Below, in pieces: positions 43,305 to 63,946 of a stretch of 64,000 nucleotides of DNA. This stretch comes from Plicaturopsis crispa FD-325 SS-3 (lineage: Eukaryota; Basidiomycota; Agaricomycetes; Amylocorticiales; Amylocorticiaceae), in the NCBI GenBank assembly GCA_000827205.1, contig KN832561.1, positions 1,353,890 through 1,417,889 on the forward strand. Direction: 5' to 3'. A program made the position numbers and the translations under genes. The first letter of the stretch is position 1. Each line of letters opens with the position of its first letter. Below the pieces are notes generated by a model, which did no database searches, was not told the origin of the DNA, and saw only the letters and a program-made list of their open reading frames with translations.

Positions 43305-46300
43305 ATGGCCCCCTCTGCCAGTCCTTTCGACGACAGAACCCCTTTAACCGATGCTCTACCTCTAGTCACCGATCCTGTGGACCCAAAAGTCGATAATGGA
43401 TTTGACGCGGTCAAGCGCGATCCCGAGTCCTGGGCCGGCACTCTGCCTGCTGACCAGGGATTGTACTCCAACGAAAACGAAAAGGATTCTTGCGGCGTAG
43501 GCTTTCTGTGCCATATCAAAGGCGAGCCCAGCCACAAAATTGTTTCAGACGCTCGTTCGCTGTTATGTGCCATGACGCACCGAGGCGCTACCGGCGCTGA
43601 CAGCCGCGATGGCGATGGTGCCGGAGTCATGACCTCGATCCCCCACTTCTTCTTTCAACGTGAAGCCGAAAGAGACATTGGATGCACTCTTCCCGAGCCT
43701 GGAGAGTATGCTGTCGGAAATGTTTTCTTCAAGCCGAACGATCCCGTACAGCTTCAAAGCTACCAGTCCGTCTTTTCGAAAATCGCTAGCGACCTAGGTC
43801 TCCGCGTCCTTGGCTGGAGGGAAGTCCCCACCGACGGTTCGATTCTGGGTCCGGCCGCGAGCAGCAAGGAGCCTGCGATCCTACAGCCCTTCGTGGTCCT
43901 CCGTGCCCACTACGGCAACGGAAATGCGAGCCAGGCAGGACCTTTCGACGCGAAGCAGTTTGAGCGGCAACTCTACGTCCTCCGCAAGCACGCAACGCAC
44001 AGCATGTTTGTGGTTTCTCTTCATACTGATCATAACGCAAGGCTTATCATCTACAATTTTCTCGCCCTTTTTTTAAAGTACTCTCGCAAAGGGATTCTAT
44101 GTGTGCTCCCTGTCGTCAAAAAACATTGTTTACAAGGGACAGCTTACCCCTCCCCAAGTATACAATTACTACCATGATCTTAATCATGTCCTGTACCGTT
44201 CTCACTTTACCTTGGTGCATTCGCGTTTCTCGACAAACACATTCCCAAGTTGGGATCGCGCTCAGCCTATGAGATGGGCCGCACACAACGGTTAGTGATC
44301 AGTCCTTCAATGCGAAGGTAAGCCTTACACGATCGCTTTTCCATAGGTGAGATAAACACCGTGCGCGGTAACAAGAACTGGATGCGCGCTCGCGAGGGTG
44401 TGCTGAGCTCCACGCTATTCGGCGACCAACTCGACCTCTTATACCCCATCATCGAGACGGGTGGCTCCGATTCAGCCGCGTTCGACAATGTTCTTGAGCT
44501 GCTCGTCGTTAATGGCGTTGTGACCCTCCCTGAGGCCATCATGATGCTTATTCCCGAGGCGTGGCAGGGCAACGAGAACATGGAGCCGGAGAAACGCGCG
44601 TTCTACAACTGGGCGGCGTGTCTTCAGGAGCCCTGGGACGGCCCTGCGCTGTTCGCGTTTAGTGATGGGCGTTTCTGCGGTGCTAACCTCGACCGGAACG
44701 GGTTGCGGCCTTGCCGGTACATCGTCACGAACGAGGACATCATCGTCTGTGCGTCTGAGGTCGGCGCGCTCTACATCTCGCCGGAGAAGGTCGTGTCGAA
44801 GGGCCGCCTGAAGCCCGGGCGCATGCTCCTCGTCGACACGCAGGAAGGACGGATAGTCGACGACAAAGAGCTGAAAAGAGCCACCGCGGCCAAACAGAAC
44901 TTCGCCTCTTGGGTCGAGACGCACGTCCTCCACGTACCCAACATCGTAAAGCGCGTGAAGCGCAGCCTGACCTCCATCGACCCCGTCCTTGACGACTACC
45001 CCCTCAGCTTGGACCCGAAGCTCCTCGCATTCGGTTTCACCGTCGAGCAGCTCAACCTGCTGATGCTTCCTATGGTTTCTGACGGAAAGGAAGCGCTAGG
45101 GTCTATGGGTAACGACGCGCCGCTAGCCGCAATGGCCACCCAGCCCCGCATCATCTACGACTATTTCCGCCAGCTCTTCGCGCAGGTCACCAACCCGCCC
45201 ATCGACCCCATCCGCGAGAGCATCGTCATGTCGCTCGAGGCGTACGTCGGGCCGGAGGGCAACCTCCTCGAGATGAAGCCGGAGCAGTGCCACCGCATTC
45301 TCCTTCCCTCGCCCCTGATCAGCATCGAGGAGATGAACGCGATGAAGAACCTGAAGCAGGCGTACTCTACGTGGCCGTCGCGCACCATCGACATCACGTT
45401 CCCCAAGGAGGAGGGCCTTCCGGGCTACCAGCGCGCGCTCGAGCGCGTGTGCAGCGAGGCGACGCAGGCGATCGACGACGGCATCAAGGTTGTCATCCTG
45501 TCGGACCGCACCACGGGCCCTACCCGCGTCCCCCTGTCTGCACTCGTCGCATGCGGCGGTGTCCACCACCATTTGACGCTGCAGAAGAAGCGTGCGAAGA
45601 TCGCGCTCATGATCGAGACGGGTGAGGCGCGCGAGGTGCATCACATGTGTGTGCTCGTTGGGTACGGCGCGGACGCGGTCTGCCCGTGGCTGATGATGGA
45701 GGCGATCCACAAGGTTGGCAGGGAGGGCCTGTAAGTGCTATATTCTCATTCGACGTCTGGTGTCCTTGACTAATTCCAACCGTTCCGTCTCTAGCGTCAA
45801 GAATGATCTGACAGTTGCCGATCTTATGGACAACTATCGCCACTCCGTGGATGGCGGCATTTTGAAGGTCATGTCGAAGATGGGCATATCGACACTGCAG
45901 TCGTACAAAGGTGCCCAAATTTTCGAGATCCTGGGTATTCACAGCGAGGTCGTCGAGCGCTGCTTCACCGGCACCGCCAGCCGCGTACAGGGTGCCACCT
46001 TCGACTTGCTCGCTCTAGACGCGTTCGAGCTGCACGAGCGTGGCTGGCCCTCCCGCGAGACCATCATCCCGCCGGGCATGCCGGAATCCGGCGAGTACCA
46101 CTGGCGTGCCGGTGGCGAGGCGCATATAAACGACCCCGCCGGTATTGCGAGCCTGCAGGACGCCGTGCGCGAGAAGAACCAGACCGCGTACGACGCGTAC
46201 GCGAAGAACGCGCACGAGCAGACCAAGGGCGTGCAGCTCCGTGGTCTCCTGGAGTTCCGGTACGAGAGCGCGACGGCCATCCCGATCGAACAGGTGGAGC

Positions 46301-49300
46301 CGTGGAACGAGATCGTCAGGCGGTTCGTCACGGGCGCCATGTCCTACGGGTCCATCTCCATGGAAGCGCATTCTACGCTTGCGGTCGCGATGAACCGGCT
46401 GGGTGGCAAGTCCAACACTGGTGAAGGAGGGGAGGACGCCGAGCGCTCGCAGGTCTTCAGCAACGGCGACACGATGCGGTCTGCGATCAAGCAGGTCGCC
46501 TCCGGGCGATTCGGAGTGACCTCGAACTACCTGGCGGACTCTGACGAGCTGCAAATTAAGATGGCGCAAGGTGCGAAGCCCGGAGAGGGAGGTGAACTTC
46601 CTGGGCACAAAGTCTCTGGCTCCATCGCTCGGACGCGTCATTCAACTGCAGGTGTCGGTCTCATCTCCCCTCCCCCTCACCACGATATCTACTCCATCGA
46701 GGATCTTAAACAGCTCGTGTACGACCTGAAGTGCTCCAACCCTCGCGCGCGTATCTCTGTCAAGCTCGTCTCCGAGGTCGGCGTCGGTATCGTCGCTAGC
46801 GGCGTAGCCAAGGCGAAAGCAGACCACATCCTCGTCTCGGGACATGACGGTGGTACCGGTGCCTCCAGATGGACTGGTATCAAGTACGCTGGTCTGCCAT
46901 GGGAGCTCGGTCTTGCGGAGACGCATCAGACGCTAGTCCTGAACGATCTACGTGGCCGCGTAACAGTGCAGACCGACGGTCAAATTCGTACTGGTCGTGA
47001 CATTGCCATTGCGTGTCTCCTTGGTGCTGAGGAGTGGGGTTTCGCGACCACGCCTTTGATCGCTATGGGTTGTATCATGATGAGGAAATGCCATCGTGCG
47101 TATATGCCGTTCCTTCTCCCGGTATCTCAATCGCTGACTTCTTTCCTTCGTTAGTGAACACCTGTCCTGTCGGCATCGCCACGCAGGACCCCCAGCTTCG
47201 CGCGAAGTTTGCAGGCCAGCCTGAGCAGGTTATCAACTTCTTCTACTATCTCGCGGAAGAGCTTCGGGGTATCATGGCGAAGCTCGGGTTCCGCACTATC
47301 AACGAGATGGTCGGCCGCGCTGATATGCTCAAGGTCGACGAGAAGCTACGGACGGTGAAGACCGCTCACCTGGACCTGTCGGCCGTGCTCAAGCCTGCGT
47401 GGCAAATGCGTCCCGGCGCTGCTACTTACCGCGTCCGCCAGCAAGACCACAAGCTCTATATTCGCCTCGACAACAAGTTCATCGATGAGTCCGAGCCCGC
47501 GCTCACCAAGGGCCTTCCCGTCCACATTGAGTGCGATGTCACGAACACCGATCGCGCACTGGGTACCACGTTATCCTATCGCATTTCGAAGCTGTATGGC
47601 GAGGAAGGACTTCCCAAGGACACTATTCATATCGCCATGAAAGGTTCTGCGGGCCAGTCGTGCGGTGCATTCCTCGCACCGGGTATCACCATCGAACTCG
47701 AGGGCGACGCGAACGATTATGTTGGAAAGGGTCTTTCCGGAGGCCGCCTCGTTGTCTACCCGCCGAAGCAATCGACGTTCAAGGCTGAGGAGAACATCAT
47801 CATTGGGAATGTGTGCCTTTACGGAGCGACCTCTGGAGAAGCTTTCATCCGTGGAATCGCCGCCGAGCGTTTTGCTGTCCGTAACTCTGGCGCAAGTGCT
47901 GTTGTCGAGGGCACTGGTGACCATGGATGCGAGTACATGACTGGCGGTCGTGTCGTCGTTCTGGGAACTACGGGCCGGAACTTTGCTGCCGGAATGAGCG
48001 GAGGAATTGCGTATGTTCTCGACACTGCGCACACCTTCGCATCGAAGGTCAACATGGAGATGGTCGAGCTCGGAAAAGTCACCGATCCGCGCGAGATCGC
48101 AGCTCTTCGCAGTCTCATTGAGGACCATCGCCACTACACTGGCTCCGATATTGCCGACCGCGTTCTCCACGACTTCCACCATCTTCTGCCCTTGTTCGTC
48201 CGTGTCATGCCCCTGGACTATAAGCGTGTGCTGGACGAGCAGACCGCGAAGCTCAAGGAGGAGAAGCTCCGCCAAAGCGTGATCGATCTCGTTCCATCTC
48301 GTACCGCCAGTCAGGTCGATCTTGCCTCCGAAGGACTCGAGGACATTCTCATGCCGAAGGAACCTCTTGCGAGTGCCATGACGCCGGTGAGAAGCCGCCA
48401 CGAGCCCTCTGTTGGCGATCTGGAAGACTCTACGGTGGACGACTCGACGACTAAGCAGCGCCTCCACAAGCTCGACAAGACCCGCGGTTTCATGAAGTAC
48501 AAGCGCTTGGGCGAGGCCTACCGTCCCCCTCGCAAGCGGGTCAAGGACTGGAAAGAAATCTCCACGCGTCTTACGGAGACCGAGCTAAAGTACCAGGCTG
48601 CACGGTGCATGGACTGTGGTGTTCCCTTTTGTCAGTCTGGTTCCGGCTGTCCGATCTCGAATGTCATCCCGAAGTGGAACGACTTGGTGTTCAAGGGCCA
48701 GTGGCAGGACGCCCTGAACCGGCTACTGCTCACGAATAACTTCCCTGAGTTTACCGGTCGGGTATGCCCTGCTCCTTGTGAGGGCGCGTGTGTCCTGGGG
48801 ATCAACGAGCAGCCAGTCGGCATCAAGAGCATCGAATGCGCTATCATCGATAAGGTTCGTTCACGCCATCTTAGAGCTCACCTTCGATATTAACACGTTC
48901 ATTTGCAGGGCTTCGAGATGGGCTGGATGGCCCCCAATCCGCCTCGCTTCCGCACTGGAAAGAATGTTGCTATCATTGGATCTGGACCGGCGGGATTAGC
49001 TTGTGCAGACCAGCTCAACAAAGCGGGTCACTCTGTCACTGTCTATGACCGCAACGACCGCATGGGTGGTCTCCTCATGTACGGTATCCCGAAGTAAGTG
49101 CACATAATTTCTGTTCCTGCTGATCATATTCTGATCACCCTTCGCGTAGCATGAAGCTTGACAAGGCAATCGTGCAGAGGCGTTTGGATCTTATGGCAGC
49201 CGAGGGTGTGGTAAGCTCGCCATTCGTTCTTCTATATCGACACACTCTCACATCTACAATAGACATTTGTCCCCAATGCGAACGTCGGCGTGAACGTTGA

Positions 49301-52721: not shown

Positions 52722-54109
52722 TCAGTCGTAGTCGTAGCGGTGTCGAGATGCCGACGGCGTGCGGTCGTCATACGATTGGTACGTGCTCGTGGACGCACTA
52801 GGATATGCATACTCGCCGTAGCGATCCGCATCCTCATAGTCGTCATATCTCGGCGGACGATAAGGCGCCACATCCCGCGTCGGAGTGACGGGGCGGTAAG
52901 ATGGATGCGTGCGCCTATAATATTCGTTGTTTCTGGCAACCCAGGCGTCGCGCTCCGGGTCACCCGGTCCTGGGATACGACCGCTACCACCAGCAGCTAT
53001 GCCGCTGGCATACAGTTTGCCACCCCACGACGGCCTGTACTCGGGGCGGTAGTCGCGGTCGTAGGAATGGCGATCCGCGTATGGTTCGGGGGAGGGATAG
53101 CGCGAGCGACGGTAGTCATTGGATTCTGACAGGGAGTCCTCGTCGTCTACATAAGAGTCCCCGGACTGGGAGCCTTCGTACGAGCCACGGCGGTCGTACG
53201 ACCTGCGAGAATGCGGGGTCTTCGATATGTCGTAGTACTCGGAGTCGTCTTGGGAATCAGAGTCTGGCGAGGTGCTGGAGTAGTCGTATTCATCGTCATC
53301 GTCATAATCATCCTGCTCGGGATCGTAGGGGACGATCCGCATGCCGCCCACTCGTACAACACTCGCAACGCCCTGCGACTGTCCGTATGTGCGATCGTCG
53401 TTGCGGGTTCGCGACTCTTCTCGTGCATTGCGCGGTCCACGGCGCCTCCCGCCTCTGCGTTTGCCGCGCCTTTTATTGTTAGATCGAGTAGGCTCGCCAG
53501 TCGGCTGGTTCCTAAAGAGACATTGTTCAGTAAATGCGTCATAGGACATCTGTCATCCCGGCAACACTTACAGCTGATCCCAAGCAGCGACCATGGCTTC
53601 TATAGCGGTGCCAAATAACCCCCAAAGCACATACCGGGTCTCTTTCTCTCCGTAAAGCTCGTAATGCAGCCCAATAATCGTCTCGAAGTAATCCGCTAGG
53701 CACTTGCGGTCTGAAGGACGGGGACCGTAGTTCTGGGCGATCCCTGCCATGCCTGTTGCTTTCATGACGACTGTGAAGAGTTCATTTGATTGGAGTGGCT
53801 GTAGTATCGCCTGTATGCAATTTCAGCCACAAGTCTTCTACGAGCGCGCTGGCTAATAATGCTCACCGTCAAAAATTGGACGGATCCGCCGTAGCGTTCT
53901 AGGAGTTCTGCACCGAGACACGATGAGACGTATTTATCTCCCATCCATTCCATCTGGTCCATTTCCTGGTCGCTCAAGCCGTAGAGCTCGGCTTCGAAAT
54001 TCTCTGGCATCCACTCGAACAGAAAGCGGTGGTCCCTGTGTCGTTTGATTGTTCGCAGCGCCACATGCAGCATTCGCTGATACATCGTGGGCGGTCCTTG
54101 CAGTGCCAT
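52722..54109 (-). CDS. Single-domain RNase III-like protein, paralog 1
   Basis: Predicted RNase III fold protein of 423 residues in three exons (243, 239 and 790 bases, sum divisible by three). The signature helix reads MEWMGDKYVSS (family LEFLGDxxL) and the second motif LADYFETIIGLHYELYG (family xADxFEALIGAxY). The four metal-binding acids are E54, D58, D121 and E124. The E-D, D-D and D-E spacings (4, 63, 3) equal those of the bacterial enzyme. No dsRNA-binding domain is visible. The C-terminal tail begins with a very basic patch (NNKRRGKRRGGRRRGPRNAR) and continues as acidic and Ser/Tyr/Arg/Asp-rich disordered sequence. A paralog lies at 61465-63076. Substrate and role are unknown. Divergent from ECO1. 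Confidence 0.82.
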
Positions 54110-54292
54110 AGTAGCAAGTGGTAAAACAGAAAAAGTGTCTGTAAAATGTTAGAATTTGACAGTGGACACGACCAAGACACGACGCCGCAGGCGCGATCAC
54201 ATGAAGAACCAAGCAAGCGCACACGACGCGCCTCATTGTGTTTGCGTGATTTTGTTGATTTCATTATTTCCGTCTTTCTTTCCGCTACCACC
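54110..54292. promoter_or_regulatory. Divergent promoter of RNase III-like 1 and ECO1
   Basis: 183 bases separate the two start codons. No TATA box stands out. Confidence 0.35.
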
Positions 54293-55353
54293 ATGTCGAC
54301 TACCAAAGTCAAGCGTACATACGGCTCGCGCACGCCTCGCCCGGCATTTCCACCGTCGTCGCCACCATCCGCACTGTCCTCGTCGCCCCCGCGTCCAGCG
54401 CTCAAGCGGTCGCTCTCGGACGCGTTCGCTGCGGCGGGCGCATCGCCGGCGAAGAAACAACGGTCTCTGGCACTCAGCACTAAACCAAACAAGGCGACCA
54501 GAACGTCCAAGTCGAAAGCAAAGGCGCCCGCTCCGAAAAAATCGTTTACACAGCTCCATTTCAGCCTCGACACTACTGTACTTGTCTCATGCCCGCTCTG
54601 CGACCTGTCATACACGAAAGGTGCGCCCGCCGACGAGTCGCTGCACCGCTCGCACTGCGCTCGCGTTCAGCGTGGAATGGAGTGGGGCCGTGAAGAGGAG
54701 AAGGAGCGCGTTAAATCAGGCTTGGAGGTCGTTGAGACCGGCGTGAAGTTGGCTGATGGAAAGAGAGGGAGGATAGTCAGCTTTCGCGCAGACGCTGGTG
54801 GCAGGCTTGGAACCAAGGTCTTTATACTTCTTTCTCTGCTTTTATTCTCGAAATTGACTTGCGCATATAGCTGAAGACCCTCTTGGAGACCATCAACCTC
54901 TCCCTGTCGGCGCCTGCTCTCACCCCCGCAATCCTGCAAGCGTCCAAAGTCTACCTATTCCTGCTACCCCACCCATCGCTCGGCTCTGCAGGACGCGAGA
55001 AGATCGTTGGCTGCGTCATCGCACAGCGAATCTCCACCGCTATGGCCATCGCCTCACCGACAACTACTCCCCCCGAGCAACCCACCACACCGCTCTTCTC
55101 TGCGTCGTCTTCTCTCTCCTTGCACCCCACGCCGCTGCCGACGCCTCTCGGCATTCCGCGGCTGTTCACGCCCACGGCGCACCGTCGCCTCGGTATCGCG
55201 AAACACCTTCTTACCGCGGCGGCGCGTACGGCTATTCACGGGTGTGCGCTCGACCCCACGAAGGGCGAGGTTGCGTTCACGCAGCCGACGGAGGGCGGCC
55301 GGGCGGTCATGGAGAGCTGGGGCCATGGCGGTGTCAGAGTCTATGAGGAATAG
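54293..55353 (+). CDS. ECO1: Cohesin acetyltransferase Eco1/Ctf7
   Basis: Acetylates the cohesin subunit Smc3 during S phase to establish sister-chromatid cohesion; nuclear. The start MSTTKVKRTYGSRTPRP leads into a Ser/Pro/Lys-rich tail. A C2H2-type zinc finger follows (CPLCDLSYTKG...LHRSHC), preceded by FTQLHFSLD as in the family. The acetyltransferase part includes KIVGCVIAQRI-type and TAHRRLGIAKHLLTAAA (acetyl-CoA loop) segments and ends AFTQPTEGGRAVMESWG. One intron (54818-54870) leaves 1008 coding bases (335 residues). The ATG at 54293 is preceded by ACCACC, a good start context. Confidence 0.93.
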
Positions 55354-55495
55354 ATCTCATCGGTCATCGTCAAGTGAGGCTTAGGTTGGGCTTAGAAGAC
55401 TGGTTATACGTTTGCAAGTCTGCTCGATTATATTCTACAGTTCCCCGTTCTCGTCAATGTATTTCCAGCGTATTTATACCCATCATTATTGGAAT

Positions 55496-57229
55496 CTATG
55501 TTAAACTCGTGCTTCGTCTCCGTACCTCGAGTGCTATATCGCTCTCTGCTGGCTCCGCCGCCCTCGATGTCGAAATCGCAGCCTCGTCATCTCCACGAGG
55601 GTCTGCAACATGGTCATGGTCTGATGTCGCCCCCGATAGTTCTACCTCAGACCACAATAACCTCGATGTGAACACCATACCCGTCCGCGGGTCGGACGGG
55701 CCAGAGGTCATGATGCCCACCGTCCCTACGCTGTGTAGATTGAGCATAAGGCGCGACATGAGCGTTACGGAGAGGTTGCTGGCGAATGTCGATAGGAAGC
55801 CTTTTAGGATGGCCTGTTGTCGTGAGGGTGGGTGTCAGCTAGGAGGGCGAGAATGGCAGGGCGTGGCTTACCGATGAGAGCTATCGTCGTGTAGAGCTGG
55901 TAAGTTTTTGACCCGTCTCATGTGAGAGAGCAACATACGTAGAACGTTAAGATATTTGCAAGGTTTGCGAACGCCATGCCACTGCAGGTGATTGCATGTC
56001 TGTCAGACCAGTAAGCCTGTGTGGTCTACCCACGGCGTCACGTACCAGAAATACATGGCACCTGTATGCATCCCGTCGACACCGTGAATAATCGATAGCG
56101 GGCACGCTGGAGCAGCACATACCATCACGAAGTAGCAGCGACAGCAATGGGAGCTTGTCCCCCGTAAGCATGAGCCCTTCATGCCGGTGCTGTCCTTTAT
56201 ATGTCGCGGAGAGCGTCAGGAAGAAAATCATGGTGTCGAAAGCGAAGAGGGCCTCCCATGGCACTGCCAAATCTAAGACCACACATGAGAGCGAACCTGG
56301 CACCACTGCCGTGCGCACTCACGAATACCGCTGCACACAGAACCGCTGCGAGTCAGTGGTTTCATACGGGTTTTAAAGTGTGGGATACGCACGTCATGGG
56401 CGTGTTGCCGATGTGGCATCCTGAGTATATGTTCGGTGTCGCAGAGCTCTTCTGTCCTGTCAAAGACCACTGTATATGTAGTACATATATGCATTAGATG
56501 CAGCCTTCGTAAAAGGAGCACACAATGATGCATACACCAGTGAGTCCAATAAACGCGAAAGCCACGCCGAGTATGGAGTAGAGAATGCGGCGACTGCGCT
56601 GGTACAGGGCATATGTTCGCAGCATCAGGAGGTCTGCACTACTTTATTAGCTTGAGGCATGAGCTAAATAACAGTTAAACTCACAAGACACGATAACTTC
56701 GCTGATGATGAGAAGAATTTGACGAGCAAAGTTGTATGTATGACATCTAATGCATATAGGTCAATGGAATTAAATGCTGGGAGCCTTGTGGCCTACCTCT
56801 AGAAGTACGTCAGTACATCCATTCCCGTAGGTCTAATGCCGATTTATTTCTCACCTCGTCCGGGATGTCAATAAAACTCATCACCGTTATTGTGAGATTG
56901 GCCCAGAAGCCAAACCATCGGTTGAACAGAAAAGCAATTGAGGAGGTTGACCGAGGCCGCGCCCATATGTACATTATTTCATCGGGTGTCGTGAGTAGTT
57001 GATCGTAGTAGAACAGGGCTGCATGCGTAGACACTTAGCAGGGGTGGGAGTATCGCGAGTGATGAAGTCTGTTCACCGATAGCAAGGAAGTGGAAGTAGT
57101 TGTGCGTTATTCTAAGTAGAAGTAGGAGTATGGAAACAACGTCAGCGTGGTATTGAAGCCAAAGGGCAAAACAACTTACATGTCCCGCGTAGCAGACACT
57201 ATATCCTCGTTCGGGGAGTCGTCGCTCAT
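55496..57229 (-). CDS. DUF6533-like 7-TM protein, second copy
   Basis: Same family as the gene at 20329-22197. The start MSDDSPNEDIVSATRD at 57229 joins through a GTAAGT intron to ITHNYFHFLAI, then AALFYYDQLLTTPDEIMYIW, STSSIAFLFNRWFGFWANL, a middle exon with LLMLRTYALYQRSRRILYS, PWEALFAFDTMIFFLTLSA, KLPLLSLLLRDG, and the terminal SVTLMSRLMLNLHSVG. It ends VRRRSTSLT with TAG at 55496-55498. The tail lacks the STRKEE repeat of the first copy. Seven helices are plausible. The family is basidiomycete-specific as far as I know, and its function is unknown. About seven introns. Confidence 0.72.
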
Positions 57230-58343
57230 CCTTACGGGGGGTGTCAAAGGTTAAACGGTACGCACGACACGACCTGTCAAGGACGTATAAGTATGGTCGA
57301 AGCGCCTCGGCGACACACACGGCGCGTCTCATGCCCCGTACCAAGAACAGCATGCCAGGGGCCAGGGCGACGTTAGGTATTAGACGTTTGAACGAAACTC
57401 TCACCGCTTGACATATCATGAACCTAATCATCGCGAGGGGAATCGATACCGACAACCGCTGCTGTACGAGATGATGCGGTGGGACTTTAAGCGCCCACGG
57501 CGGCTGTAGCGGCCTCTACGCTGCGTAGATGATGTACCGTGGTTTTGTATCGCGTCTTGCTCGTCAGGGCTACGCGTTACGCCATGATATGCACTTGATG
57601 TAGTTTTGACAGATAGGAGGAGCATTTACGATGCCCTGAGTTGAAAGCGGATGCTGCAAAGACGAGTACATTGTCTCCAGTGATTTCGGAGGCTTCGACT
57701 AGCCTTGCAAGCAGTGAAGATGCTGTGAACGGACTGGGTCGCGGACAGCTATCAATGATACTTGTCAAGTGGGGAGACGGGACGAACATCTTTAGATGCT
57801 ATGAGACCTCCGAGAAGCCAGGCGTTGCTCGCGCTCCGGAGTCCGGACGGAGTATTGAGGCTGTCCACGTATGGGGCGTCCAATGAGCTGTTGAAGGAAC
57901 AGCCGTGGTTAAAGCAGCTGAAGGGAGGAGTGAAATCATGAAAAAAACTGTGTGCGATGCAAGTACGATTGGTCTCTTAAGTATTTCGAGTGGAGCGTAG
58001 GACGCTCCAGACAGTATACGTAGGGAGAAAATCTGACATGCGGACGTTCTGGGCATTCACTGCCGCTTGAGTGCTTGATTGCCTGCGCGTGTACCAGTCA
58101 ACGCTATACCCGCAGGACTCTAGTAATGCAGATGATGGCACTCACCCTGCTCGAGCGCACCCTGAAAACAACGGCTCAGCGAGAAATCGTTGCAGAAAAT
58201 GCAAGGCTTAAGGGTATGCATCCAGATGGGAAACACGGCACACGGCATTCCAAAGGCGGCGAATTCATTCAAAGGAATCCATATTAGAGGCACGGTTGCC
58301 TGAGATGTGAGCAGGGGTTTGCCAAATATTGCAAGGAAATAAG
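57230..58343. other. Spacer without a supported gene
   Basis: Frames at 57577-57789, 57799-58056 (both minus) and 57641-57886 (plus) overlap. The minus-strand stretch at 58200-58340 (LFVTYFLAIFGKPLLTSQ) could be a helix from a decayed membrane-protein gene. I cannot build a gene from them. Confidence 0.35.
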
Positions 58344-60097
58344 TTACGAAGAGAAACCAAAGCCCCCCTTCTTCCGCACCTCCCTGGTCTTTCCTCTGAT
58401 GCCCCAGATACCCCAGTTTGTCTTGACCATCACTCGCGGATCGAAGTCGGCGACCTCCCACTTCTCGCTGCCAAACGCATTCGGGCCGGGCGTAATGACC
58501 CAGTCGAACTCCCCTGCAACGTCTGGCGCACTCGATAGTGAGCGAACGTCGCGCTCAACGTCTGCGGGGGAGAAGCCCGTGACGAATATCGGGCATTTGG
58601 AGGCTAGGAGCGCCGGCATGACAGGACCCCATTCGGTCGGCGACGCAATCTGGAGCATGGGCTCGCCAGTCTCGGAGATGGATTCGGGGGAGGGGAAGCC
58701 GAAACCTGGCGAGAACATGAAGAAACAATCGCTGTAAGGATCGAAAGTCTCCTGGAATTGGGCGTGCACATCCAGGTAATTTGCCTGCATGCCGGTGATT
58801 GTCAGGGCATGCGTATATGGCACTGTGTATGACGGAACACCGTAGCGCTCAATAGACGACCGCGTCCGCTTCAGACGCGCAATTGGCGCTGGTGTGGGCG
58901 GCACATAAACGTTAGGCACATATGTGGGTTTCTCCTCTGCTTTTTCAGCGACATCCTTTGCTTCCGAAGAAAGCTCTGGAGGAGGTGCCGTCTTTTCAGT
59001 CGCTGCTTCCGCTGATGGGTTTTCCGCCGAAGACGAAGAAGCCTCCGGAGTGGCGCCTTTGGTGGCTGCTGTCGGAGCTGGCGCGGTCGGCGGTTTTGGC
59101 AAGGACACCTGCGGTCCGATGAAGAAAAGATGGAGATTTCCAGCAGGGAACAGCATAGTCAGTTGCTCCCATACATGAGGGGGCAACGACGACTCGGCAC
59201 GGGCACCGAGGATAAACACCCGTACTTGCGATTTACCGACACCAGCCTCCTGCGTATCCGGAGAGCCTGGAGCGACGTGTAAATTGGTCCGTAGGGCTAA
59301 CACGATACTTCTTCAGAGGATATGCTGATGAAGAATGTAAGAGAAACGCACCTGCGAGGGAGCGACTACCCTCTGGGGTCACTCTGTGGTTGCTGAGGGA
59401 CAATCCACTATGCTGATGAAGGACGTTGCCGATGGTCATGGGGTACGTCAAGAGTTTACTAGCATGTCTTCGCGATCGTTCTGTGTCCATGGAGGGAAAC
59501 CCACGCGTGTACCAAAATAAGTCCCAGTTCGCAAATGAGACGGCCTCCTCGGTAGACTGGGGTCCTTCAGAGAATGTCAGATGCGCACCAGTGGCATTTA
59601 CAGGCATGAGACGTACCAGGGAGGTCAAACTCGCGCATTCGTCTACCCCTCCTTAAATCATGCTCGTCCTCGTTAACCTCCCTTAGTCGCGAGCAGTATT
59701 TCTTGTGTTCTTCGTCAGCTGCCCAATGCTCTTCCGTGCAATGCGTTGGCCAACCGCAGTCAGGACATTCGAATTTGACCGCATGCGGTTGGGCTTGAGT
59801 GTGCGCGTGAAGGTGACTGTGCGAAGACGCGCATACGGGACATGGCGCGAGCGATTGGATGGCCTCGCCACGAGCGCGTACGGCGGGAAAGGGTGACTTG
59901 GAGAACGAGTGGAATAAATCATCGTCGCCCAGGAGCGGCTCTGGCTCCTTCGCCTTTTCTTGCGACTTTTTCGATGATTTCCGCAGGAAGTTGAATAGCA
60001 ATCTCTGGTTTGCTGGCTGCGCCAGTCTCTGTGGTCGACATGGTCGGATCCCTGTCGCCAGCAGCCCTGGCCGACGAGGCAGTGGAAGAGGAGCCAT
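58344..60097 (-). CDS. MSS51: Mss51-type mitochondrial translation/assembly factor
   Basis: Mitochondrial protein that in yeast activates translation of COX1 mRNA and chaperones Cox1. An Arg-rich presequence-like N-terminus (MAPLPLPRRPGLLATGIRPC) is followed by a zinc finger with CPVCASSHSH, CPDCGWPTHC and HKKYC. Then come REVNEDEHDLRRGRRMREFD, and after an intron EEAVSFANWDLFWYTRGFPS, RHASKLLTYPMTIGNVLHQ and LSNHRVTPEGSRSL. The last exon has VRVFILGARAESSLPPHVWE, a Pro/Ala/Glu-rich linker and a C-terminal fold containing PTEWGPVMPALLASKCPIFV. It ends KKGGFGFSS with TAA at 58344-58346. About two introns. The start codon near 60097 faces HIS3. Confidence 0.9.
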
Positions 60098-60282
60098 GTT
60101 TGCGACACCTTCTGTAGGTTGTGGAAGAAGGAGGAGGCCGACGACTGCAGCGGAGGTTCGGTCCTGGTTTGGTCGGCCGATACTTTCTTGACCGCGACCA
60201 CGACAGTCAAATCAATATTGTATACTACTCGTCCGACTCCGACATCTTTTCCTGACTCTTGGTTGCCTATAATACTCCCAAA
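60098..60282. promoter_or_regulatory. Divergent promoter of MSS51 and HIS3
   Basis: 185 bases between start codons. An AT-rich CTATAATA near 60268 is too close to the HIS3 ATG to be a normal TATA box. Confidence 0.35.
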
Positions 60283-61126
60283 ATGTCTGCAAGACAAGCG
60301 ACAATCAAGCGGAAAACAAACGAGACCGAAATCGAGGTCTTCATTGACCTCGATTGTGCCCCAGGTTCCGCCAATGTCCAAACCATTGACGTTCATACGG
60401 GCATCGGTTTTCTCGACCATGTGCGTATTGCAAGTGCTTAAACTATCCGAAGAAGCTGATGGGTTGGGTGTTTCGTAGATGTATACTGCTCTTGCAAAGC
60501 ACGGGGGGATGTCATTGACTATGAAATGCACGGGAGACCTATGGATAGATGACCACCACTCAGCAGATGAGTGGTTGCTTCGTTCAGAAACGGTCTTCTT
60601 TAATTAACAACTGCGTCGGGTGTCTGTACAAGACAGTGCCATTGCCTTGGGAGATGCATTCAAGAAGGCGTTGGGCGAAGTGAGGGGCATTCGCCGGTAT
60701 GGCACCGGATTTGCGCCCCTTGATGAAGTAAGTATACCCGCCGTTCTGTGTTCTCCATGCCTGACTGATCTAATGTTCATGGCGTCCAGGCACTTTCAAG
60801 AGCAGTCATCGACATATGTTCTCGGCCTTACTGTGTCACCGATTTAGGCTTAAAACGCGAGAAAATTGGAGATCTCTCGACAGAAATGATTCCCCATATC
60901 TTCTACTCGTTCTCGATAGCGGCTGGTGTAACATTACACGTCGACGTCCTTCGCGGAGAGAACGACCATCACCGGTATGTTAACGCGCCGCTCATATGAA
61001 GTCACCTTACCGATGCAATATCTTTTCAGTTCCGAATCGGCGTTCAAAGCGTTGGCATTGGCTATCCGACAAGCGATAGAAAGAACGGGAGGAAATGATG
61101 TACCAAGCACAAAAGGGGTGCTATAA
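60283..61126 (+). CDS. HIS3: Imidazoleglycerol-phosphate dehydratase
   Basis: Histidine biosynthesis enzyme that dehydrates imidazole glycerol phosphate, using two manganese sites. Sequence marks: [42 protein letters not shown] with the metal-binding [56 protein letters not shown] and [14 protein letters not shown]. Five exons: 60283-60420, 60479-60570, 60637-60727, 60790-60974 and 61030-61126. They sum to 603 bases (200 residues), a normal length for the fungal enzyme. The acceptor at 60636 was chosen because it restores HHSADDAIALG. Confidence 0.96.
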
Positions 61127-61464
61127 AAAGCGTTTGTCAACTTTTTCCTCTATGGATGTTGTTCTTCTATGTATGACTTACGGAAACTCGGAAATGTTCA
61201 GGAACTACTTTTATTCAGGCTGAAAAGGCAAATTACTGAGGCATCATGAACCTGAGGTTGTTTGGTGCCGTGCCGTCAGTGTTGTAACTAACAATGACTG
61301 CTGACCTCCGCTTTCGCCGCTTGCAGTTCGATGCAGGAAATTTCGCAGACTCAGGGCCCAGGAATTCGTTCCTTTGTCTGAGCATGCTGCATGCCTCGTT
61401 GCCTTTACTATCACACTACCTTCTTGGAGACCTCTTACTCTGCGTGCACGGTTGCTAACAGGAT

Positions 61465-63076
61465 ATGTTAGTGAAACCTGGCTCTTCGAGTCAGCCCCGT
61501 TCGAGGCACTCACTTATCCCACGTCGATCTGCAGCTTCGGGGCCCAACATGTACAATAGGATGTTGCATGTCGCCCTGCAATCCATCAACAAAGGAGAAA
61601 ATGCCGACAGCCTCAGGCAGGCCATGCCAACGCTCCAGGAAGTCGACGGGCTGTTCGAACTATCACCCGAGGAAATGGACCAATATGAATGGATGGGTGA
61701 TAAATATATCTCCTCGTGTTTGGGGGCGGAGATTCTCGAGAGATACGGTGGTCCCGTCTGGTTTCTAACGGTGAGCTTTACAGGCAGTTTTGGAACATGC
61801 GAATCCTTGAATCTTCTTGTTTGTAGGCTATGCTACAGCCATTGCAGTCCAATCGTCTATTCAGCAAGCTCATGCATGTGACTGGCTGGGCGAAGCATGC
61901 ACAGCTGCACGGTTCGCGACCAACGTCGCGGAAATGTGGCGCAGATTACTTCGAAACGATCATTGGATTATTTTATAAGATCCATGGCGAAGTGAAGACG
62001 CGCGATTTGTTGTTGCGCCTTTTTAGCTTGTCAATCCAAGCAATGAAAAGCGTCTGGGACGAAGAGTGAGTACTAAACTCCACAGATATACTTTGATCCA
62101 TATGTGTACTCCATCTCCTGATTGACAGTCGATTCATAGACATCCCGAGGTCGCTTTAAATCGGCCACGAGCCATTTCTATTCTACGCGAGCCAGCTGGC
62201 ACTACTCATTGTAATTCGAAACCCCTCCCTTCAACTTCGACACAGACCCATGTGATTCCGCCGAGCAAGTCCGCCCAGTCTGTCGATATAATTCCTGACG
62301 CACTTCCTGACGCAGGAGAGCTCAAAGGCCTCGCGCACGCTATCATTGAACGGGGTGACCATGAACAGAAGGATTCCTCATATAACAGGCCTCTGTCTTG
62401 GTCTGATGAATCTGTCTCCGAAGATAGTCCCTCTTGCGAGGTCGACTTAGGCGAAGATCATATTCCCGTACCGACATCGCTTCTCGTCTATGCGACACAT
62501 GTTCACGGTCGCCTTACGCCCTCCTTTCCCGATCAAAACAGTGTTGAGGCACCGATTGGACACCCCGGCCTTTCTGGGTCTTGTCAAAATAATCTTCCAT
62601 TCCTATACTCGACACAGCGGCCCTTAGCGAACTCGTGCGCCCACAATTCGACAATTCGACGCCTCTGCCAGGCCGTCGAAGGCCATAGCATGGTACGATC
62701 AACGAACTTGCACTCTACGAACTCATTTGAGAGTCACCCCCCTCAGAGTCCACGATCGCGATACGTCCCTAAATACATTGGCCCTTGGCTAGATTTCTAT
62801 CCGTTTCAATCTTCGCCCCCTCAGGATCCTACCTTTCGACCAACTCTGAGTCCGGCGTGTCGCGCGATCGACCCAGACGATTTTGACACAATAAACGATA
62901 TTTACTGGCCAAATTCCCCTTGGGAAGGCGAACGCGCATACCCCGGTTATTGGATACCGGATGGTCACTGGGAACCTGAGCGGCCCTCCCGACAGCGGGA
63001 TATGCTGGGCCGCAGGGTGTTTACCGTACGGGAGGCTCTCGAGGCTCGCCGTCGTCACCGTGACTCCCCTTCGTAG
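61465..63076 (+). CDS. Single-domain RNase III-like protein, paralog 2
   Basis: Second RNase III-like gene, 493 residues in three exons (61465-61770, 61827-62065, 62140-63076; sum divisible by three). The signature reads YEWMGDKYISS and GADYFETIIGLFYKIHG, giving E75, D79, D142 and E145 with the same 4-63-3 spacing as paralog 1. The first intron (56 bases) and exon 2 (239 bases) have the same length, position and phase as in paralog 1, proving common descent. The Ser/Arg-rich start (MLVKPGSSSQPRSRHSLIP) is about 20 residues longer than in paralog 1. The C-terminal tail is unrelated: Pro/Ser-rich, then DIYWPNSPWEGERAYPGYWI and REALEARRRHRDSPS. There is no dsRNA-binding domain. The acceptor at 62139 was chosen because the earlier AG at 62128 leads to a stop. 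Confidence 0.82.
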
Positions 63077-63594: not shown

Positions 63595-63946
63595 TGATGG
63601 ATGACGTGGATGCTGTATCCAAACCTTAATTCGGTTACACGATCCACGTCATCGTCGGACATTTCCTCTGTTTCTTCTCCTCATGCGGACGGTCTTTTTC
63701 CCGGAACTTCCCGAACCTCATATACATTCGTTTCGTTCGTCTTTGTCCGCTTTCCTCGGTCGTTCCACTATTCTTGCAGTGCGACTGAGGTATGTTACTT
63801 TATACTACTTTACACTTTTACTTTAATACTTACGCATGTACCAGACGCGATACGCTTCGCACTTATAGGTACATATAATCAGGTCGTTCCACTATTCTTG
63901 CAGTGCGACTGAGACGCGATACGCTTCGCACTTATAGATTCTGTCA
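63595..63946 (+). mobile_element. Probable 5' LTR of a Ty1/copia-type retrotransposon
   Basis: The segment starts TGATGGATGACG and ends CTGTCA, so it has the TG...CA ends of an LTR. It is followed directly by GGTTATGAGCCCC (63947-63959), complementary to the anticodon arm of initiator tRNA-Met, the priming site used by Drosophila copia-type elements. Inside is an inverted repeat (ATGACGTGGAT at about 63599 and ATCCACGTCAT at about 63643). Two direct repeats also occur: 63758-63789 with 63882-63913, and 63843-63868 with 63912-63937. The coding part and the second LTR lie beyond the window. Confidence 0.6.
63758..63937 (+). repeat. Interleaved direct repeats inside the LTR
   Basis: A 32-base unit beginning GGTCGTTCCACTATTCTTG (63758-63789) recurs at 63882-63913. 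A 26-base unit beginning AGACGCGATACGCTTCGC (63843-63868) recurs at 63912-63937. The pattern fits a tandem duplication within the LTR followed by divergence or insertion. Confidence 0.85.

Follow-up and report, generated by a model that had tools for sequence, protein, structure and literature searches.

Divergent, putative single-domain RNase III genes in a three-copy cluster of the basidiomycete Plicaturopsis crispa

Two paralogous genes and a third copy

A 64,000-nucleotide stretch of contig KN832561.1 of Plicaturopsis crispa FD-325 SS-3 (hereafter, the window; the contig is designated C8 among the 49 contigs of the 33.2-Mb genome searched here) carries two genes, ~7.4 kb apart and on opposite strands, that each encode a single ribonuclease III (RNase III)-like domain followed by a long tail. 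The two genes had been described in a sequence-only reading of the window, and their splice models match deposited P. crispa proteins. Together with a third copy located beyond the window, they appear, on sequence grounds, to constitute a locally clustered, divergent subfamily of single-domain RNase III proteins without a recognizable double-stranded RNA-binding domain (dsRBD).

Gene 1 (minus strand, positions 52722–54109) consists of three exons (54109–53867, 53810–53572, and 53511–52722) that encode a protein of 423 amino acids, identical letter for letter to the deposited protein P0001. Exon 1 (243 nt) encodes the N-terminal helices and the first RNase III motif, EWMGD (53936–53950; E54 and D58). 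It is separated by a 56-bp GT-AG intron of phase 0 (53811–53866) from exon 2 (239 nt), which begins seven residues upstream of an SN motif, LQSN (L87–N90; 53784–53795), equivalent to the LVSN motif of RNase III, and which also carries the ADYFE motif (53682–53696; D121 and E124). After a 60-bp intron of phase 2 (53512–53571), exon 3 encodes a tail that is rich in Arg, Asp, Ser, and Tyr and is mostly disordered by prediction. In this tail, a strongly basic Arg/Lys/Gly patch (residues 172–191, net charge +11; 53421–53480) comes first and an acidic, Tyr-rich stretch follows. A lone predicted helix within the disorder (residues 346–362; 52908–52958 of the minus strand), with block-mean predicted local distance difference test scores of 67–79 in a threaded model, is possibly a short docking motif.

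Gene 2 (plus strand) was modelled with exons at 61549–61770, 61827–62065, and 62140–63076, giving a product of 465 amino acids. The deposited product, P0002, has 493 amino acids, of which the last 465 match the model exactly. Its start lies 28 codons upstream, at 61465, so that exon 1 spans 61465–61770 and the ATG at 61549 is internal. The introns have lengths of 56 bp (61771–61826, phase 0) and 74 bp (62066–62139, phase 2), and exon 2 is again 239 nt long. The motifs EWMGD (61687–61701), LQSN (61842–61853), and ADYFE (61941–61955) are all present, and the four acids are E47, D51, D114, and E117 in the numbering of the 465-residue model. Exon 3 encodes a Ser/Pro-rich tail with a basic C-terminal end, which is likely disordered judging from its composition.

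Exons 1 and 2 of each gene encode a domain of ~155 residues, with 59 per cent identity between the genes, and the position and phase of both introns are common to the two; the shared first intron and 239-nt second exon had been recognized in the sequence-only reading. Both retain the four metal-site acids as well as the Lys preceding ADYFE. Across 152 codons of the domains, the proportion of differences is 0.83 at synonymous sites (pS) and 0.29 at nonsynonymous sites (pN), with 62, 36, and 88 differences at the first, second, and third codon positions, respectively. Because synonymous sites are near saturation and amino-acid sites are not, genes 1 and 2 are old paralogues under strong purifying selection. 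Their tails, of 263 and 312 residues with biased composition, are unrelated by BLAST; the basic patch noted earlier in tail 1 carries +11 over 20 residues, and the most basic window of tail 2 is +5.

The two genes are not merely a pair, as had been supposed. Genome searches with either protein located a third paralogue at 1429650–1431639 of the contig (plus strand), 12 kb past the window end, and no other close copy, so that the three copies span about 25 kb. In exon 1, the third copy is 71 per cent identical to gene 2. Between its SN and ADYFE motifs, a 7-bp tandem repeat marks a shift of the reading frame. Because both sides of the frame break resemble constrained coding sequence, with the acids kept on both, the third copy has either been disrupted recently or owes its break to an assembly error. 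The tail of this copy (471 residues, spliced by eye) is Arg/Ser-rich and contains repeated motifs. The earlier view of the tails as unrelated stands for genes 1 and 2; tails 2 and 3 give only weak BLAST matches that are not significant (E-values of 0.016–0.022 in a four-sequence database). The C-terminal ends of tails 2 and 3 likewise look basic and helix-like by eye.

Three copies within about 25 kb, one of them frame-broken, with tails that vary in length and composition, might represent lineage-specific, fast-diverging genes for genome defence or incompatibility. Protein searches matched only P0001 and P0002 and nothing from other species, but the tool detects only relatives of limited length that have exact five-residue words in common with the query; with the protein of a related gene on contig C5 as the query (four residues short), there was no match at an E-value of 0.01, even to its own deposited copy. 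The absence of outside relatives is therefore weak evidence; these searches provided no further member for the basidiomycete group that had been suggested earlier. Selection on the domains between the copies is purifying rather than diversifying. We consider a role in defence or incompatibility rather unlikely.

Probable assignment of the domains to RNase III

Three lines of evidence agree that genes 1 and 2 are very probably RNase III genes. First, a profile of the two proteins matches a profile of three further single-domain genes of the genome (on contigs C5, C2, and C4) with a probability of 96.5 per cent and an E-value of 7.2e-10 in a one-template comparison. The score is 62.4, versus 19.7 for the best of 100 column shuffles, and two of the three partner genes (C5 and C4) pass the cut-off of the Pfam RNase III model (PF00636). 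In single hhalign comparisons with the profile of genes 1 and 2, the probabilities are 94.5 for C5, 78.4 for C2, 75.6 for C4, and 65.1 for a set of 29 bacterial enzymes, in contrast to 7.7 for three Dicer 'a' domains and 0.9 for two Dicer 'b' domains. Second, all six genes (the three cluster copies and those on C5, C2, and C4) have room for a phase-0 intron of 53–57 bp at a common position, seven residues ahead of [SQ]N, and Gln is the fourth residue past the junction in 6 of 6. The deposited products of genes 1 and 2 are consistent with the intron, and the acceptors of C5, C2, and C4 were chosen by us; C5 and C4 each offer two possible AG acceptors, separated by 12 nt, and the upstream one was taken because it restores the common length. 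Third, an unguided MAFFT alignment brings all three motifs of the two proteins onto those of the 29 bacterial RNase IIIs, the two acid motifs (ExxxD and DxxE) occurring in order with the SN motif between them.

Both genes have the ExxxGD-type and ADYFE motifs with the acids spaced 4-63-3, as read earlier from the sequence. This spacing had been likened to that of the Aquifex enzyme (E40, D44, D107, and E110), but it carries little diagnostic weight: 25 of the 29 bacterial RNase IIIs have 4-69-3 (one sequence, in which Gly replaces the leading acid of the second motif, yields no value), and residue numbers given for EhRNaseIII of Entamoeba histolytica correspond to 4-61-3 (PMC5357909).

Several observations weigh against an RNase III assignment or against conserved function. 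The Pfam check proposed earlier fell short, since both proteins score below the PF00636 cut-off of 27 bits (the full-length products of genes 1 and 2 reach 14.3 and 13.2 bits, and their domains 17.8 and 16.1 bits), and the tail of gene 1 matches an unrelated viral VP2 model slightly better (15.6 bits, E-value of 0.017 versus 0.074 for RNase III). Searched alone against solved chains, the gene 1 domain gives two weak matches, both unrelated, and the profile of genes 1 and 2 reaches the solved RNase III 2a11 with an E-value of only 0.19. The structures nearest to a threaded model are RNase III enzymes; the model was threaded on bacterial RNase IIIs through an alignment that presupposes this fold, so the result is not independent, and no Foldseek match of it reaches an E-value of 0.001. 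An unthreaded model was too poor for fold comparison. Both proteins have Val where the bacterial 'PEG' loop has Glu, and the loop ahead of ADYFE is shorter than in bacterial enzymes. Finally, the family is located on a branch of about 2.4–2.5 substitutions per site, and its function may therefore have shifted.

The very long branch, the altered first motif (EWMGDKY), and the lost PEG Glu would be compatible with a catalytically silent scaffold of RNase III fold, acting as a dimer partner of another RNase III (e.g. the C5 protein) or as an RNA-binding regulator. However, genes 1 and 2 retain the four acids as well as the Lys that precedes ADYFE, and the third copy also retains the acids, which makes a silent scaffold quite improbable.

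Pfam scans revealed no dsRBD, PAZ, or helicase domain in either protein, nor any other domain over its own cut-off, in line with what had been read from the sequence. The dsRBD model dsrm has no match in either protein at E-values up to 10 and none at the locus, and no NCBIfam model matches either protein.

RNase III genes elsewhere in the genome

In a six-frame search, PF00636 matches nine places in the genome: six in three tandem-domain genes (on contigs C11, C7, and C1), which are probably Dicers, and one each on contigs C10 (in an mL44-like gene), C5, and C4. Three Dicers are reported for 49.5 per cent of Basidiomycota proteomes (PMC12663654), and P. crispa is therefore ordinary in this respect. 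Among the single-domain genes, C5 and C4 have clear matches (E-values of 3.7e-9 and 7.6e-11), pass the cut-off, and carry a canonical LEFxGD motif; C2, with LDYLGD, has a weak match below the cut-off (E-value of 0.015). The genes on C4 and C2 lie on the minus strand. Like genes 1 and 2, all three have one RNase III domain and intron 1 at the same position and phase, given the chosen acceptors, with which the middle acid spacing is 61 in C5, 74 in C4, and 57 in C2. Their domains are 20–26 per cent identical to that of gene 1. In the C5 protein, a basic patch precedes an acidic, Tyr-containing tail, the same order as in gene 1.

In a phylogenetic tree, the three cluster copies, C5, and C2 are split from the Dicer, bacterial, mitoribosomal, and C4 domains with supports of 93.5 (Shimodaira–Hasegawa-like approximate likelihood ratio test) and 97 (ultrafast bootstrap). 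The same split receives supports of 88.5 and 85, respectively, when the third copy and C10 are removed. The tree was built with 10 of the 29 bacterial sequences, and it lacks the second RNase III domain of the Dicer-like gene on C1, for which open frames allowed no assembly. Because the branches are very long, the grouping, with its moderate support, is only suggestive. C5 and C2 are the nearest relatives found outside the cluster. Clustering with Dicer or mitoribosomal proteins, which would have spoken against a separate group, was not seen within this genome.

The model dsrm has matches over the cut-off at 413 kb of C1, 1546 kb of C3, and 3315 kb of C2, none near an RNase III gene, and one match below the cut-off (17.2 bits) inside the C7 Dicer frame; a second dsRBD model, PF14709, has no match in the genome. 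Among the nine PF00636 places and the dsrm matches, no gene that combines RNase III and dsRBD (the Rnt1/Pac1 type) was detected in the six-frame search, which is intron-blind and may miss short exons. Because the search ignores introns, the absence is a lead rather than a result. The single-domain proteins could stand in for the missing enzyme, together with a dsRNA-binding partner, in the processing of the substrates of Rnt1, namely pre-rRNA, snRNA, and snoRNA. If they do so, P. crispa would have altered a core RNA pathway in a way that is open to direct testing. Yet the absence is unproven, housekeeping enzymes are usually well conserved whereas genes 1 and 2 have diverged strongly, and C4 or C5 would be a better candidate; we therefore regard such a replacement by genes 1 and 2 as unlikely. 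A broader scenario, in our view improbable, is that a basidiomycete lineage in which no enzyme joining RNase III to a dsRBD is detectable assembled its non-Dicer RNase III functions from catalytic domains that stand alone, with one locus diversifying into paralogues that differ mainly in their disordered recruiting tails and that are perhaps obligate or optional heterodimers, forming a modular cutter-plus-tail system for structured RNA.

Around genes 1 and 2, the neighbouring genes (44322–48890, 54125–54871, 58347–60208, and about 60250–61126 of the window) are ordinary: Pfam identifies a glutamate synthase, an ESCO-type zinc finger protein, and MSS51, and an imidazoleglycerol-phosphate dehydratase-like frame was recognized by eye alone. 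Near the window end (63758–63937), there are two pairs of exact short direct repeats, of 32 and 26 nt.

Proposed action and comparison with known systems

We favour, with a probability of roughly 0.6, a reading of genes 1 and 2 as divergent single-domain RNase III endonucleases that act as dimers and capture RNA with the help of tails or partners. Each chain would provide one RNase III domain with four metal-binding acids. RNase IIIs are described as having to dimerize for efficient cleavage (PMC5357909); because each gene product has one domain, a homo- or heterodimer would be required if the proteins are active. Two chains, the same or mixed, would thus dimerize, and in a metal-dependent manner their two active sites would cut both strands of double-stranded or hairpin RNA. 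Because there is no recognizable dsRBD, weak substrate capture by the domains alone is expected, and the tails (such as the Arg/Lys/Gly patch of gene 1) or partner proteins may recruit the RNA, as proposed for EhRNaseIII. Since the tails of both gene 1 and C5 pass from a basic patch into an acidic stretch with Tyr, it is plausible that such a tail might attract or shield RNA. For the job of the proteins, which may be RNA processing or small-RNA production, the likeliest guess is a role beside the three Dicer-like genes.

If active, the proteins would offer a minimal natural setting for studying how an RNase III domain locates its RNA when no dsRNA-binding domain is attached, and a test case for whether tails or heterodimers supply specificity. 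Fungal Dicer surveys keep only two-domain proteins, so that single-domain genes are filtered out: funRNA discarded sequences with one RNase III domain (PMC4290597), and a 2025 Dicer survey required two in tandem (PMC12663654). Genes 1 and 2 also fail the Pfam cut-off, so that standard domain searches largely miss the family. No such proteins in basidiomycetes were mentioned in the titles and abstract beginnings searched, which did not cover subscription journals.

Several known classes do not accommodate genes 1 and 2. Mini-III (MrnC) is a bacterial, small, stand-alone RNase III domain without a tail, whereas genes 1 and 2 are fungal, encode 423 and 493 amino acids, and match no NCBIfam model; the label 'mini-RNase III' used in the sequence-only reading is thus misleading. 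In mitoribosomal proteins of the mL44 type, the acids are commonly lost. The mL44-like C10, which by eye lacks an acid at three of the four positions (LASLGN, TDAWT), has an hhalign probability of 0.18 with genes 1 and 2 and is placed elsewhere in the trees, and the acids of genes 1 and 2 are kept. Bacterial class I RNase III, Rnt1/Pac1, and yeast Dcr1 carry a dsRBD. They resemble genes 1 and 2 in acids and in the domain fold predicted by the threaded model, but no dsRBD was found in genes 1 and 2, and the lack of a detectable C-terminal dsRBD rules out class I/II RNase III (bacterial, Rnt1, Pac1) for genes 1 and 2. Dicers are described as having two tandem RNase III domains plus helicase, PAZ, DUF283, or dsRBD (PMC12663654), an arrangement that genes 1 and 2 lack. 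They are not Dicer fragments either: each has one domain, its own start and stop, and a separate deposited protein, and Dicer domains match them far worse than C5 does. Their earlier separation from both Dicer and Rnt1/Pac1 is thereby borne out.

R3B2 of Mucor (PDB 6zdw) is likewise described as fungal, non-Dicer, and equipped with one catalytic RNase III domain (PMC7763443, PMC11943222). It is reported to bind single- and double-stranded RNA and to cut only the former (PMC11943222), and genes 1 and 2 might similarly represent an RNase III fold turned to cutting single-stranded RNA in mRNA degradation. Among the Foldseek matches of the threaded model, the ribonuclease core of R3B2 ranks sixth, and genes 1 and 2 have a shortened loop ahead of ADYFE. 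However, R3B2 has two dsRBDs (PMC7763443), which were not found beside the RNase III domain of genes 1 and 2 and rule out membership in the R3B2 type, its conservation is described as limited to Mucorales (PMC11943222), and no feature of genes 1 and 2 is specific to it. We judge an R3B2-like activity very improbable.

For single-domain endonucleases with tail- or partner-dependent capture, the closest working analogue is EhRNaseIII (PMC4521922, PMC5357909; PDB 5f3o, 5f3p, and 5f3q), with which genes 1 and 2 have in common one RNase III domain, four acids, and a C-terminal region without a dsRBD. A further trait of EhRNaseIII-like proteins is the packing of flanking helices alpha1 and alpha7 on the core; in the threaded model, helices are predicted at residues 9–23 and 116–161. 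According to one study, EhRNaseIII shows no robust cleavage in vitro, processes dsRNA in yeast, and partly supports silencing together with yeast Argonaute (PMC4521922), and truncation of its C-terminal region is reported to raise binding and cleavage (PMC5357909). EhRNaseIII is short (about 256 amino acids, going by the construct name EhRNaseIII256) and is described as the sole RNase III protein of its organism. P. crispa, in contrast, also carries the third cluster copy, three more single-domain genes, and three Dicer-like genes, and the tails of genes 1 and 2 are 263 and 312 residues long.

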